Position numbers and translations under genes: made by a program
Part shown: piece after piece, positions 31,130 through 36,188 of the stretch
Layout of the letters: every line of letters starts with the position of its first letter
Numbering within the stretch: position 1 is the stretch's first letter
Assembly: GCF_016834655.1 (NCBI RefSeq)
Contig: NZ_JAENHP010000002.1
Location: 434,001-498,000 of the forward strand
Length of the DNA stretch: 64,000 nucleotides
From: Paractinoplanes ovalisporus
GTDB taxonomy: Bacteria; Actinomycetota; Actinomycetes; Mycobacteriales; Micromonosporaceae
Reading direction: 5' to 3'
Notes under the pieces: generated by a model
Seen by the model: only the letters and a program-made list of their open reading frames with translations
The model's database searches: none
What the model was told of the DNA's origin: nothing

Positions 31130-34087
31130 GTGCTGTCCTCTCCGAGTCTGTCGCCGCAGAGCCCCGCGCGCCTCCGTGTGCTGCGGGCCACAGGTCTGCT
31201 CGAAGCCGAACGTGTCGAGGCGCTCGACCGGCTGACCAAGCTCGCCGCCCGCATCCTCGCCGCGCCGACCGCGCTGGTGTCGCTCGTCGACGCCGACCGG
31301 CAGCGCTTCGCGAGCGCGTACGGGCTGTCGGGCGAACTCGAGAAGACCCGGCAGACACCCCTGTCCCACTCGTACTGCAAGTACGTGGTGGAGGACCGGG
31401 CCGCCCTCGTGGTCGACGACGCCCGCGTCGACGCCCGCCTGCACAACAGCCCCGCCATCGGCGACTACCAGGCCATCGCGTACGCCGGTGTGCCGTTGCG
31501 CTCACCCGACGGTCACGTCCTCGGGTCGTTCTGCGTGCTCGACTCCGAGCCGCGGGTCTGGACCAAGGACGACCTGGCGCTGCTGCGTGACCTGGGCGAG
31601 GCCGCCGAGTCCGAGGTCGCGCTGCGCCTGTCGCACGCCGAGCAGCGGATCTCGTCGGCCCGCATGCAGGCCGTCGTCAACGGCACCCACGACGCCTACA
31701 TCTCCACCGACCTCGACGGCACCGTCCTCGACTGGAACGCCGCCGCCGAGCGCATGTTCGGCTACCCCGCCCGCGCGGCGGCCGGCCGCAACATCGCCGA
31801 CCTGATCATCCCGGAGCGTCACCGCGCCCAGCACCTGGCCGGGCTGCGACGCGTACGGGAAACCGGGGTCTCCGACCTCTCCGGGCAGCACATGCAGATC
31901 TCCGCGCTCACCAGCTCGGGCAGGGAGTTCCCGGCCGAGATGACCTTGCAGGTCGTCGCCGAGCCCGGTGGCACCGTCTGCCACGCCTTCATCCACGACA
32001 TCACCGGCCGGCTCATCGCGGCGGCCGAGATGGAGAAGCAGCGGCAGAAGGCCGACGACGAGCACGCCTTCCTCGAGGCCGTGCTCGACAGCGTCGACGT
32101 CGGCATCGTGGCCTGCGACGCCGACGGCAAGCTCACGTTCCTCAACCGGGCCGCGCGCGAGGTGACCGGCCGCGGGGCCAACCCGGACACGCCGATCGAC
32201 GAGTGGAACGCCCCCTATCGCGTCTTCGAACCCGACGGCCGTACGGTCATGGCCGACCTGCCGCTCAACCAGGCGTACGAGGGCGAGACCGTCCGCGGCC
32301 GGCACATGCTGGTCAAGACCGAGGACTCGTGGCGGCGCTTCATCACCAACGGCAGCCCCATCGAGACCCGCGACCACCGCAAACTGGGCGCCGTGATCGC
32401 GTTCCACGACATCACCGAGGCGCACCGGGCCGAGGAGCTGCGCCGTGCCCGCCACGCCGTCGCCCAGGTGCTCTCCGACGCCACCAACGCCAAGGACGCC
32501 AGCATCGACGCCGTCGCCGCCATCACCAAGGCGCTGGGCTGGACCGTCGGCGAGTACTGGCAGCTCACCGACGACCGGCAGACCATCGTGCGGCACAGCT
32601 CGTACGCACACGGCGACCGCGACCTGTCCACGTTCAGCAACGACCGGCCGCTCACCTTCGAGCGCGGCGAGGGCCTGCCCGGCCTGGTGTGGGCCCGCAA
32701 CGGCGAGGTCTGGTGGAACACCGGCGAGATGCCGTCCGACATGAAGGACCTGGGCCGCGCCGCGCTGCACGAGGTCGGCATGCGCGTGGCCGTCGGCGTC
32801 CCCGTGCACTCGGGCCGCCGCGTGCTGGGCGTGCTCGCTTTCTACAGCGACCAGGACCTCCCGTACGACCAGGACCTGGTCGGCATGCTCGACGCGGTCG
32901 GCGCCCACCTGGGCCGTTTCGTCGAGCGCCGCTGGGCCGAGGACATGTCGCTGATGCTGGCCGACGCGCGCCGCAACTTCGACCGGATCGTCGCCCAGGT
33001 CAACGACTACGTCTGGACCGTCGAGGCGGTCCCGGGCGAGGAGGCCCGGCTCGTCTACGGCAGCCCCAACGGTCGCGCGGTCTTCGGCCGGGAGGTCACG
33101 GTCGAGGACCCGACGACGCTCGGCGAACGCGTCCACCCGGACGACGCCGGGATCCTGGACGACTTCCGGGCCAAGCTCGGCGCCGGCGAGCACGCCGAGG
33201 TGGAGTGCCGGGTCATCGGGTTCGACGGTGTGGTCCGGTGGATCTGGACCCGTGCCGCGGCCCGGAAAGAGGGCGAGAAGCTGTTCGTCGACGGCCTCTC
33301 CACGGACGTCACCGACCGCCACGAACTCTCCGACCAGCGCGAGCGCCTCCTCGACCAGGAACGCGAACAGGTGGAGAAGCTGCGCGAGCTCGACCGCATG
33401 AAGGACGAGCTGTCCGCAGTAGTCATCCACGAGCTCCGCAACCCGGTGGGCGTCATCAAGGCGTACACGGAAATCCTGTTGGAAAGCCCCGCCTTGGAGG
33501 GACCAGAACGCAAGCAGGCCACGGTCGTCGACCGCACGACCCGGCACCTGCAGGAGCTGGTGGACGACCTGCTCGACCTGGCCCGCCTGGACGCCGGCCA
33601 CATCAGCATCGACCCCAGCCCCATGCTCGCCGAGACGATGCTCCACGAAATCGTGGACAGCCACCAGCCAAGCGCGGCCGCGAAGAACCTGACCGTGAAC
33701 GCCACGATCAAGCCGGAGCTGGCCGTCTACGCCGACGCCCAGCGCTTGCGCCAGGCCCTGGACAACCTGCTGTCGAACGCCATCAAATACACCCCCGAGG
33801 GCGGCACAGTAACCCTGAGCGCCAACCACTCCGGCGACGAGGTAGCCATCACCATCAGCGACAACGGCATAGGCATCCCCGCCGAGCAGTACCCCCACCT
33901 GTTCAGCCGCTTCTTCCGAGCCAGCAACGCCACAAAAGCAGGAATCAAGGGCACAGGCCTGGGCCTGGCCGTAACCAAGGCCATCATCGACGCCCACAAA
34001 GGCACCCTCGCCGCCCGCCCATCACCCGAGGGCGGAACCGAGTTCACCCTGACCCTGCCGGCCCCCGTGGTCGATTTCCAGCGGTAA
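31130..34087 (+). CDS. Multi-PAS/GAF sensor histidine kinase
   Basis: A 985-residue soluble kinase. Domains in order: GAF (about 15-165), PAS (about 180-300), PAS (about 315-430), GAF (about 440-600), PAS_3 type (about 620-735), HisKA with H767 in VVIHELRNPVGVIKAY, and HATPase_c (about 855-980) with N box LDNLLSNAIKY and G boxes DNGIGI and GTGLGLAV. No membrane helix and no receiver domain are present, so it senses a cytoplasmic cue, perhaps redox or a small ligand in the GAF/PAS sites. No response regulator gene is adjacent, so it is an orphan. The GTG 31130 start has only a weak G-rich ribosome site. Confidence 0.92.
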   Translation: MLSSPSLSPQSPARLRVLRATGLLEAERVEALDRLTKLAARILAAPTALVSLVDADRQRFASAYGLSGELEKTRQTPLSHSYCKYVVEDRAALVVDDARVDARLHNSPAIGDYQAIAYAGVPLRSPDGHVLGSFCVLDSEPRVWTKDDLALLRDLGEAAESEVALRLSHAEQRISSARMQAVVNGTHDAYISTDLDGTVLDWNAAAERMFGYPARAAAGRNIADLIIPERHRAQHLAGLRRVRETGVSDLSGQHMQISALTSSGREFPAEMTLQVVAEPGGTVCHAFIHDITGRLIAAAEMEKQRQKADDEHAFLEAVLDSVDVGIVACDADGKLTFLNRAAREVTGRGANPDTPIDEWNAPYRVFEPDGRTVMADLPLNQAYEGETVRGRHMLVKTEDSWRRFITNGSPIETRDHRKLGAVIAFHDITEAHRAEELRRARHAVAQVLSDATNAKDASIDAVAAITKALGWTVGEYWQLTDDRQTIVRHSSYAHGDRDLSTFSNDRPLTFERGEGLPGLVWARNGEVWWNTGEMPSDMKDLGRAALHEVGMRVAVGVPVHSGRRVLGVLAFYSDQDLPYDQDLVGMLDAVGAHLGRFVERRWAEDMSLMLADARRNFDRIVAQVNDYVWTVEAVPGEEARLVYGSPNGRAVFGREVTVEDPTTLGERVHPDDAGILDDFRAKLGAGEHAEVECRVIGFDGVVRWIWTRAAARKEGEKLFVDGLSTDVTDRHELSDQRERLLDQEREQVEKLRELDRMKDELSAVVIHELRNPVGVIKAYTEILLESPALEGPERKQATVVDRTTRHLQELVDDLLDLARLDAGHISIDPSPMLAETMLHEIVDSHQPSAAAKNLTVNATIKPELAVYADAQRLRQALDNLLSNAIKYTPEGGTVTLSANHSGDEVAITISDNGIGIPAEQYPHLFSRFFRASNATKAGIKGTGLGLAVTKAIIDAHKGTLAARPSPEGGTEFTLTLPAPVVDFQR

Positions 34088-34094
34088 CCAGCCT

Positions 34095-34228
34095 GGTTTG
34101 GGTGATCTCCTCGCGACGGCAGCCCCCGCTCATCGTGAGGAAGGGCAGGGCGCAACCGGGGTTTGGTTGCGCCCTGCCCTTCCTCACGATTCGCTTGAGG
34201 CCGCCGCCGCGAGGAGACCACCCAAACC
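34095..34228. repeat. 134-bp nested near-perfect palindrome
   Basis: Outer arms of 21 bases (34095-34115 with 34208-34228) have one mismatch, GGTTTGGGTGATCTCCTCGCG against its inverse. Inner arms of 24 bases (34134-34157 with 34165-34188) are perfect, around the loop GGGGTTT. The 18-19 bases between outer and inner arms are also partly symmetric. The element sits between two convergent genes and may end transcription in both directions. Its length and two-layer symmetry look more like a small non-autonomous mobile or REP-type element than a simple terminator. Confidence 0.9.
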
Positions 34229-34291
34229 CCACGCCCCGCCCCTCGTCTTTGCCCTGGCTTTTCACCGATCTCCGAGCGATGGCCGGGGTCT

Positions 34292-34314
34292 GGGGCAGAG
34301 CCCCAGGGTTTTGG
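34292..34314 (+). terminator. Short hairpin with T-run
   Basis: CTGGGG (34292-34297) pairs with CCCCAG (34303-34308) around CAGAG, followed by GGTTTT. It is a weak second terminator for the histidine kinase gene, beyond the large palindrome. Confidence 0.5.
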
Positions 34315-34382
34315 GTTAGGTGGCTGTTGACGGCAGCGAGGTTCTGGTCGCGCTGCCGAGCACTACGCCCCGCCCCGTCTGC

Positions 34383-36188
34383 TCACAACCGACTAGCCCG
34401 CAAAACCTCCGCCACCGACCAAGCCTGGAACGGGCACCCGGTAGCCACATGCGGGGCGTCCCCCTCCGCCGTCTCCGAGATCGAGCCCACCCCGTACTCA
34501 TTGAGGTGGGCGTCGATGTCCACCACCACCTCCACACCCAACCGGTGCCAGGCAGTCGCATACGGGCCCAGCAACCACGGCCAAACCGTACCCGTGTGAT
34601 AGGCCGTATCCCGCGAAGCCGGCGTTCCCCGATGTGCTCCCTGATAGCCCGGCGACCCCGGTGCCTGACTGCGCAACCCCAACGGCGTCAACAACGCCGC
34701 CCCGATGCGGGAGAGCACCTCCGGGTCCGGGGTCAGCGGCGCATGCGGCAACGACCACGCCAGCAGCTGATTAGGCCGCAGCGTGGCATCGTCCGGGTCC
34801 ACCACGTCGTAGAGCCACCCCGAGGGCGCGGGAAACCGTGACGCGAAGGCGGCCCGGGCGGTGTCATGCAGCGGGTGCCCAACCGTGGCCAGCGCATTCA
34901 CCCACAACGCGTTGATATCAACGGCCTTACCAGCGCGCGGCGTAACCGGCACCCCGTCGGCACGGGCGTCCATCCACGTGAGCGCCTGCCCCGGCGACCC
35001 CTGACAGAGCAGCCCATCAGCCGGATCGACCCGAATCCCGTAACGCGTCCCCCGCACGTGATGGGAGATCACCTCGAGCAGGTCCGGCCGCAACGAAGCG
35101 GCCAGATCCGTGTCACCGGTCAACGCCACATGCCGATCCACCGCGTGCAGAAACCACAGCGTCCCATCCGCCGTGTTGTACTCCACCCCGCCGGTGTCGG
35201 CCGTGTTCGCCAGCATGCCTTCCGACAGCGTCTCCCCGTACGCGGAAAGAAGCTCCCGCCCCTCCTCAGCGCGCCCGGTCGACAGGAACAACCCTTCGTA
35301 GCTCAGCATCGTGTCGCGCCCCCACGCCCCGAACCACGGGTAGCCCGCCACCACATCAGGACCGGCCGGGGTGCGTACGACAAAGGCATCGGCCGCCAGA
35401 GCGAGCGCCGATGAAAACTTTCGATTGCGCGCCCGCGCCGCCCCGACGACCTCAACCGCCGGGGGCGGAGGCTCGCCGGCCGCCCACGCGTCGACCGAAA
35501 CCGTGTCACCCGGCGAACGGAGCGAAGCGTGGAAGCTCCCCGCGTACCAGAGATCCTCGGTCGGAGTAAGCCCCCGCGCCGCCTCCTCGCGATGCCGCAC
35601 CCCGCGCCACCACTCACCGCCCCGGCGGAACCCCGGCCCCCGCACCCGGTACGCGCGGTCAACCGTGAACCCGCCGTCGACCGCCTCCACCGAGGGCGGC
35701 GGGCCCCCGGCCGTACGCTCGCCGTGCACGTCCCGCCACGTGCACAGCGCCTCCAGCGACAACTCCACCGGCCCGCCGCTGAGCAACCGGTGGACCACCG
35801 CGACCGCCGGCTGCCCGTGCACCGTCGCGATCTCGCGTTCGAGCACCACGTCGCCGATCCGCCACCGCCAGCGGGGCAGACCGTCGACCAGTTCGAAGCC
35901 GGCCAGCAGTTCGTGCCCGCGTGGGGCGATCGTCCCGTCCGCCCATTCGTGCGTGGCCAGCCGCACCGACACACCCGAGGGCAGTGTGAGCACCGGGTCG
36001 AGCGAGGCCAGCCCGAGGTGCCGCCGCGCGGGTGTGCCACCGGCCACGACCAGCAAGCCGTGGTAGCGGCGGGTGCGCAGGCCGCTGACGGTGCCCATCG
36101 CATAACCGCCGAGGCCGTCCGGCACCAGCCACTCCCGGGTGGCGCCCTCGTCGAGACGCCCGCACGTCTGGGAGCCGAACGTAGCCAT
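34383..36188 (-). CDS. Amylo-alpha-1,6-glucosidase-type glycogen debranching enzyme (GH133-like)
   Basis: A 601-residue cytoplasmic enzyme with no signal peptide. Residues about 1-220 match the bacterial/archaeal glycogen-debranching N-terminal domain (WLVPDGLGGYAMGTVSG, RRYHGLLV). From about 250 an (alpha/alpha)6 barrel carries GYPWFGAWGRDTMLSYEGL, typical of the catalytic part, and later DARADGVPVTPRAGKAVDIN. It would remove alpha-1,6 branches from glycogen or maltodextrin. GAGAGG lies eight bases before ATG 36188. It is divergent from a GH63-type glucosidase gene across 93 bases, so joint control of internal alpha-glucan turnover is likely. Confidence 0.87.
   Translation of the reverse strand: MATFGSQTCGRLDEGATREWLVPDGLGGYAMGTVSGLRTRRYHGLLVVAGGTPARRHLGLASLDPVLTLPSGVSVRLATHEWADGTIAPRGHELLAGFELVDGLPRWRWRIGDVVLEREIATVHGQPAVAVVHRLLSGGPVELSLEALCTWRDVHGERTAGGPPPSVEAVDGGFTVDRAYRVRGPGFRRGGEWWRGVRHREEAARGLTPTEDLWYAGSFHASLRSPGDTVSVDAWAAGEPPPPAVEVVGAARARNRKFSSALALAADAFVVRTPAGPDVVAGYPWFGAWGRDTMLSYEGLFLSTGRAEEGRELLSAYGETLSEGMLANTADTGGVEYNTADGTLWFLHAVDRHVALTGDTDLAASLRPDLLEVISHHVRGTRYGIRVDPADGLLCQGSPGQALTWMDARADGVPVTPRAGKAVDINALWVNALATVGHPLHDTARAAFASRFPAPSGWLYDVVDPDDATLRPNQLLAWSLPHAPLTPDPEVLSRIGAALLTPLGLRSQAPGSPGYQGAHRGTPASRDTAYHTGTVWPWLLGPYATAWHRLGVEVVVDIDAHLNEYGVGSISETAEGDAPHVATGCPFQAWSVAEVLRASRL

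Follow-up and report, generated by a model that had tools for sequence, protein, structure and literature searches.

A 64,000-nucleotide stretch of the Paractinoplanes ovalisporus genome (the window, in which all positions below are given) carries, between two convergent genes, a 134-nt imperfect hairpin (34095–34228, + strand) that forms the first part of a repeated unit of about 215 bp composed of hairpin, linker and tail. We describe the element as a new interspersed hairpin repeat family, REP/BIME-like in its siting and unnamed in the libraries searched. The account that we favor, with a probability of about 0.6, is that of a non-autonomous interspersed repeat that is still amplifying, is inherited, and has one strand folded as RNA or as single-stranded DNA. 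The Actinoplanes group of soil bacteria is known for its natural products; what it harbors here is apparently an undescribed repeat family at gene ends, one that disturbs genome assemblies, with several copies situated at contig ends.

Architecture of the hairpin and the repeated unit

Arm search, folding and co-variation all identified the hairpin. Its outer arms (34095–34124 and 34199–34228, + strand) are 30 nt long and 90% complementary, and they include, in their first 21 positions, the 21-base arms with one mismatch recognized in the first-pass annotation. The inner arms (34132–34157 and 34165–34190, + strand) flank a 7-nt loop, GGGGTTT (34158–34164); they were correctly called perfect and the loop correctly sized, but they extend over 26 nt rather than 24. 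RNA folding of positions 34080–34245 gave −119.5 kcal/mol compared with −66.0 (sd 4.1) in 200 shuffles, none of which (0/200) reached that energy, and with a z of −13.0 the palindrome proposed between the convergent genes is real. Upstream, a gene for a GAF/PAS histidine kinase on the + strand ends at 34087, and downstream, the stop codon of a glycogen debranching enzyme (GDE) gene on the − strand begins at 34383. The intergenic stretch (34088–34382) thus spans 295 bp from stop codon to stop codon, and it is far shorter in three relatives.

An extent of 134 bp is correct for the palindrome but not for the repeated unit. Within the window's genome (G000, 11.4 Mb), the likeness of the window copy to three other copies (L002, L003 and L006) begins, by eye, at GGTTTGGG, whereas the two copies with which contig C27 begins and ends are 98.9% alike along a 190-bp stretch and diverge after CCCCAGGGT. 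Given this start of likeness on the 5′ side and the shared point of divergence on the 3′ side, the unit was delimited by copy comparison to about 34095–34309 (+ strand). It is probably non-coding, to judge from its position past both stop codons and from its pairing. The remaining 70 bp or so before the GDE stop codon (34310–34382) bear, by eye, no evident resemblance to flanking sequence of other copies or to the short intergenic stretches of the relatives. Contig C27 both begins and ends within the hairpin, and a telomere was considered for this reason; the idea was dropped because likeness between the two end copies is confined to the 190 bp, past which they diverge.

Three copies of a 17-bp motif, with the consensus GATCTCCnnGCGAYGGC shared by arm and tail, are distributed over the unit. 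The first (D1, GATCTCCTCGCGACGGC; 34104–34120, + strand), located by alignment with the tail copy, lies in the 5′ arm, and an inverted copy in the 3′ arm (34203–34219, − strand) pairs with it in the fold. A linker (34229–34266, + strand), which flank comparison found to vary in length among copies, is followed by the third (D2, GATCTCCGAGCGATGGC; 34267–34283, + strand) in the tail. The tail ends in a small, terminator-like hairpin, CTGGGGC-AGA-GCCCCAG (34290–34306, + strand), the closing pairs of which vary on both sides among copies (CT/AG, TT/AA, GT/AC, TC/GA); its pattern was matched by 59/70 entries, of which a few are unpaired at the outer position.

Hairpin and tail travel together. Seven matches to the tail pattern (34281–34309) were found in G000, and all seven adjoin one of its eight hairpin places; the eighth place, C44:650259, has no tail. 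With up to 2 mismatches allowed, the pattern was found in 17 of the 67 genus genomes, all among the 18 bearers of the hairpin, and in 0 of the 49 genomes without it, while the reversed control of the pattern gave 0 matches in the same 67 genomes. The eighteenth bearer, G048, has a diverged tail. Nine or so of the 49 tail-pattern matches in the genus have no full hairpin alongside; of five inspected, four (L202, L218, L199 and L226) retain a piece of an arm and one (L224) is tail only.

The arm and tail motifs of a copy also tend to change together, as seen in 63 copies, in 62 of which both motifs were read. An arm with GCTCTC was accompanied by a GCTCTC tail in 11/11 copies, both GGTC arms with a tail that was read had GGTC there too, and both copies of G015 have TCCC in arm and tail alike. 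Exceptions are two GTTC arms that mismatch their own tails, L020 (tail GCTC, arm GATC), L078 (arm GATCCC, tail GATCTCC) and a few tails elsewhere that read CATC; some tails in this comparison were misread by the search expression. Mean agreement between arm and tail was 5.40 compared with 5.12 (sd 0.05) after redealing of the tails, with a maximum of 5.32 in 2000 deals, a statistic inflated by the relatedness of the copies. Copy by copy, the D1/D2 repeat is weak: 26/63 copies reached p < 0.05 against their own shuffles and 3/63 reached p < 0.005, and of an additional 17 copies, about 13 of them from other genera, one fell below 0.05 and two lay at 0.05. The claim of a repeated motif is accordingly founded on its fixed place and co-variation, not on significance in single copies.

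Copies, descent and genomic sites

A search of the 134 bases against their own genome, as the first-pass annotation had proposed, located the hairpin at 8 places. Within the genus, bearers numbered 16/67 genomes by BLAST and 18/67 by covariance model, the weakest being G023 (E 6.7e-5). Across the family Micromonosporaceae, the covariance model detected related hairpins in 26/354 genomes and 4/44 genera, and thus in three genera besides this one; all 8 copies read in genus g8 have the same hairpin-tail order, and in g18 and g23 the long hairpin is present with the same tail not clear in the copies read. Being dominated by the long stem, the model could catch unrelated hairpins in these other genera. 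One exact pattern matched 8 named stretches, all from Actinoplanes and Paractinoplanes species. Counting both strands, the maximum per genome in the genus was at least 22 matches. All copy numbers are lower bounds, with 50 candidates scored per genome and draft assemblies breaking at the hairpin; it is the copies cut by contig ends (G000 C27, G002 C44, G042 C42, G063 C43 and C44, and G064 C67) that point to the hairpin as the cause of such breaks. In later counts, copies identical in their core are represented once (L051 and L055 of G055 among them), and partial, overlapping or internally deleted entries were excluded from the set of 62 copies kept for alignment and from the neighbor, motif, strand-neutral and tail-hairpin counts.

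Copies resemble those of their own genome. The nearest neighbor lay in the same genome for 38/60 copies, compared with a mean of 4.6 and a maximum of 14 over 2000 shuffles, and a tree of 64 copies required 24 changes of genome label compared with 44.6 in shuffles; gene conversion could be an alternative source of this likeness. When sharing was defined as at least 400 bp of matching flank among fetched copies, a definition under which sharing can be missed where a contig end leaves little flank, 73 entries resolved into 54 loci, of which 44 occur in one genome only and 10 are common to two to seven genomes. Some copies are therefore old. In a GDE tree with midpoint rooting, which held 23 of the 30 genomes requested (seven bearers had no usable orthologue, and its 12 non-bearers had been chosen by us from the 49), all 11 placed bearers belonged to a single clade of 14 members, outside which lay 9 non-bearers, and descent was therefore taken to be mainly vertical. 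Judged from these sequence comparisons, this is an old family that has been passed down within one branch and has repeatedly amplified locally.

The gene context of 45 classified entries (of 76, a few of which are two readings of one place) was obtained with a home-made caller based on GC by codon position: 26 lie between convergent genes, 11 and 8 between tandem genes of the two orientations and 0 between divergent genes. The class of 8 is partly an artefact, because the caller finds protein genes only and missed a tRNA-Thr gene, in the direction of the hairpin, within 400 bp upstream of three of its members (L007, L049 and L066). At the locus common to seven genomes, a tRNA-Thr gene lies upstream in 5/6 scanned loci (L030 has none, and L081 was outside the scan). 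The convergent bias could be a product of selection after insertion.

Sites without the element were found in relatives. Between the matches to the two flanking genes, the window measures 327 bp compared with 31 bp in G029, 317 bp compared with 21 bp in G001, and 314 bp compared with 115 bp in G007; in these three relatives both genes are adjacent and the hairpin is absent. At GDE, the hairpin model matched the window's locus and had no match within 1.5 kb in 22/22 others, most of these loci not being shown to share the histidine kinase neighbor. Likewise, the model had no match in 9 loci orthologous to that of another copy, L064, and one of these nine, in G002, retains a truncated remnant some 280 bp from the gene. 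A target duplication was not visible by eye, the nearest empty-site flanks being about 76–83% identical. With 8 places in one genome, bearers across the genus, a shared end base and empty sites in three relatives, the early suspicion of a mobile or repeated element was upheld. The opposite case, that of a single copy conserved in place, fails for the window copy; 10 of the 54 loci of the family are shared.

Several variant arrangements were observed. Among the matches listed, perhaps a third of the copies have a second hairpin block (block A; some 313 bp in G000) 2 to about 400 bp upstream, oriented like the unit itself. This block was seen in G000 at C8:84992–85352, C27:4683–4995 and the ends of C34 and C35 (L113–L116), so that its two other G000 copies sit at contig ends, and its spacers differ in length between L002 and L003. 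Long hairpins with CATCCC arms (L158 and L165–L167, from G279 and G207) occur in pairs that are alike in all letters compared. The members of a pair are separated by 7 to 22 kb, the contigs that carry them are 34 to 144 kb long and may be plasmids, and the repeat extends over at least 300 nt in L158 and L165. Deletion forms (L202 of G015, L226 of G002 and L175 of G064) consist of outer arms, or of only one motif copy, plus the tail, and L226 is consistent with recombination between the two direct motif copies. L050 (G007; 1528–2077) comprises two oppositely oriented copies with about 280 bp between them, and in L021 (G018; 1416–1549) the 5′ arm and its upstream flank are duplicated in tandem (86 bp) beside an intact copy.

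Conservation of the fold on one strand

In an alignment of 39 copies, 32 of 52 pairs have changed on both sides with pairing kept; the 39 were chosen from 62, and the 23 others are mostly diverged forms of G056, G061, G018 and other genomes. Mispairs in this alignment were predominantly G.T (174 cells in 19 columns) as opposed to A.C (9 cells in 4 columns), and without one predicted loop pair the values became 136 cells in 18 columns and 9 in 4. The difference of 19 from 4 columns has a p of 0.003 if columns are assumed to be independent. Two wobble pairs are conserved among the 39 sequences, T.G at columns 46/100 in 27 and G.T at columns 47/99 in 33.

Because the structure of the 39 copies was predicted with RNA energies, which favor G-U and lean the result that way, a strand-neutral alignment provides the cleaner test. 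Each hairpin of 63 copies was aligned to its own reverse complement with equal penalties, the orientation of the copies being taken from sequence similarity and not from the fold, and 353 G.T, 68 A.C and 335 other mispairs were counted. By copy, G.T was the more frequent in 59/63 and A.C in 1, with 3 ties. The outcome in 17 further copies (17/17) is not independent, since their strand was set by a model built with G-U pairs.

As the arms co-vary and G.T exceeds A.C, one strand is recognized as the folded strand. Such an excess would be the expected outcome of selection on a + strand RNA; a folded single strand of DNA would bias mispairs in the same way, probably more weakly. The two marks of a structured RNA, co-varying pairs and tolerance of G-U on one strand, were both found, and an earlier suggestion of a very stable structured RNA therefore stands with respect to the fold, the RNA itself being a prediction. 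No Rfam family matched at gathering scores across the window (0 matches), and at 16 related loci only tRNA and msiK models did so, the element matching microRNA models below gathering; an Rfam counterpart above those scores was thus not found. The plasmid and phage collections held no match to the element, and the titles and abstract openings among the matches listed from the open-licence PMC literature describe no such element in Actinoplanes.

Known systems, rival explanations and proposed mechanism

REP palindromes are described as 20–40 bp in length (PMC3733652), with REP/BIME intergenic, repeated within genomes and found mainly downstream of genes, between convergent or same-direction genes (PMC3733652, PMC8266576), at over 100 copies per genome (PMC2817692); PMC3733652 has 0 occurrences of five actinobacterial names. 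By these descriptions, the Actinoplanes hairpin is alike in its location at gene ends, between convergent or tandem genes, and in its repetition within genomes, and to this extent the proposal of a REP/BIME unit was apt. It does not extend to size (134 nt), to copy number (at least 8 in G000, and roughly ten places or fewer detected per genome), to the GTAG/CGTC tag, no conserved form of which lies beside the hairpin foot in flanks read by eye, or to the transposase: the Y1 enzyme of REPs (RAYT, or TnpA-REP) is absent from 14/18 bearers. The Actinoplanes unit, moreover, adds a tail with a third motif copy. A REP-like element mobilized as folded single-stranded DNA by a Y1 (HUH) transposase would account for an asymmetric, strand-biased hairpin at gene ends, but it is very improbable with 8 places instead of hundreds, no tag seen at the foot, and the Y1 transposase (PF01797, in 21/67 genomes) present in 4/18 bearers compared with 17/49 non-bearers (Fisher p 0.39) and lacking altogether from G000.

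MITEs are short, repeated, non-coding elements with terminal inverted repeats, a target duplication and an autonomous relative. Although the Actinoplanes unit is also short, repeated and situated at places empty in relatives, it begins with GGTTTGGG and ends with GCCCCAGGGT, so that inverted ends are absent, and the one-strand fold sets it further apart; no target duplication was visible by eye, and no autonomous copy was encountered among those compared. A strict MITE, that is, a deletion product of a DNA transposon with the outer arms as its terminal inverted repeats, is improbable. The outer arms are indeed inverted and conserved, the length is short, and shortened copies retain these arms, but the unit extends 81 bp beyond the right arm with a tail that accompanies the hairpin genome by genome, and an excess of G.T would be unexpected if only double-stranded ends counted. 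The suggestion that the palindrome's termini serve as transposase sites is thus borne out only in the conservation of the outer arms. Ends of the IS607 family, which encodes a serine transposase, are described in PMC6188088 as having several subterminal motif copies with neither terminal inverted repeats nor target duplication. On that description, the Actinoplanes unit is alike in its subterminal motif copies and lack of terminal inverted repeats, and differs in its long hairpin and one-strand bias.

Intrinsic terminators share GC-rich stems at gene ends with the Actinoplanes element, and its tail mini-hairpin resembles them; the long hairpin differs in its size, its conserved motifs and its absence from the same place in relatives. 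The sequence directly after the long hairpin, CCACGCCCC, is not a T-run, and since GGTTTTGGG directly follows the mini-hairpin, the tail alone could act as a weak intrinsic terminator. The chief competitor of the favored account, a doubtful one in our estimation, is a functional 3′-end RNA, namely a terminator or RNA-stability element spread by ordinary recombination and kept by selection without transposition. The long co-varying stem with its one-strand G.T bias, the GC-rich mini-hairpin with closing pairs varying on both sides, the lack of divergent contexts (0/45) and the tRNA-Thr gene upstream of the locus common to seven genomes would all agree with it. Against it, 44/54 loci occur in one genome only, GDE has no hairpin at 22/22 other loci, the tandem contexts (11 vs 8) indicate no strong orientation relative to the upstream gene, and no T-run follows the long hairpin. 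Long palindromes can undergo correction toward symmetry, and a neutral relic without function or mobility could in principle keep its arms alike through template switching during replication; however, the conserved wobble pairs at columns 46/100 and 47/99 would be lost under such correction, two-sided changes are few rather than the rule between the most similar copies, and the tail tends to track the arm motif, so that this origin too is scarcely to be expected.

Because the defining features of REPs, those of strict MITEs and an Rfam match are wanting, the element is described as a new family; the non-autonomous, one-strand-folded repeat is preferred as its interpretation. For such a repeat, the + strand is proposed to fold into the long hairpin, followed by the linker with the third copy of the arm motif and then the terminator-like hairpin. 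This folded strand would arise through read-through of a neighboring gene (as RNA) or as single-stranded DNA. A putative trans-acting enzyme would then recognize the foot of the hairpin and the tail motif, and copy the unit into new positions at the ends of genes, where the hairpin and its tail may serve as a transcript end or as an RNA-stabilizing structure, a role that would make insertions harmless or mildly useful. A bolder and distinctly speculative version is that of a class of mobile structured RNAs in Micromonosporaceae, in which the ends of a short non-coding element would be the ends of the RNA, with the hairpin at the 5′ edge and the terminator-like hairpin at the 3′ edge, the folded single strand (RNA or DNA) would be copied by an enzyme other than the usual transposases, and the tail motif, in tracking the arm motif, would be a second recognition site. 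Should the strand bias stem from mobility that proceeds through a folded single strand and needs no Y1 transposase, the family would hint at an undescribed means by which small non-coding elements move; should it stem from a function as RNA, the family would represent a new conserved RNA structure of Micromonosporaceae.

A reverse transcriptase was also considered as the mover. PF00078 occurs in 45/67 genomes, comprising 16/18 bearers and 29/49 non-bearers (p 0.04), an association that was not counted because two bearers are without the enzyme and many non-bearers possess it. Matches of about 1e-18 to 1e-22 were observed in many genomes of the genus, bearers and non-bearers alike, mostly in frames of some 440–590 aa, an example being G000:C6:235221–235835.
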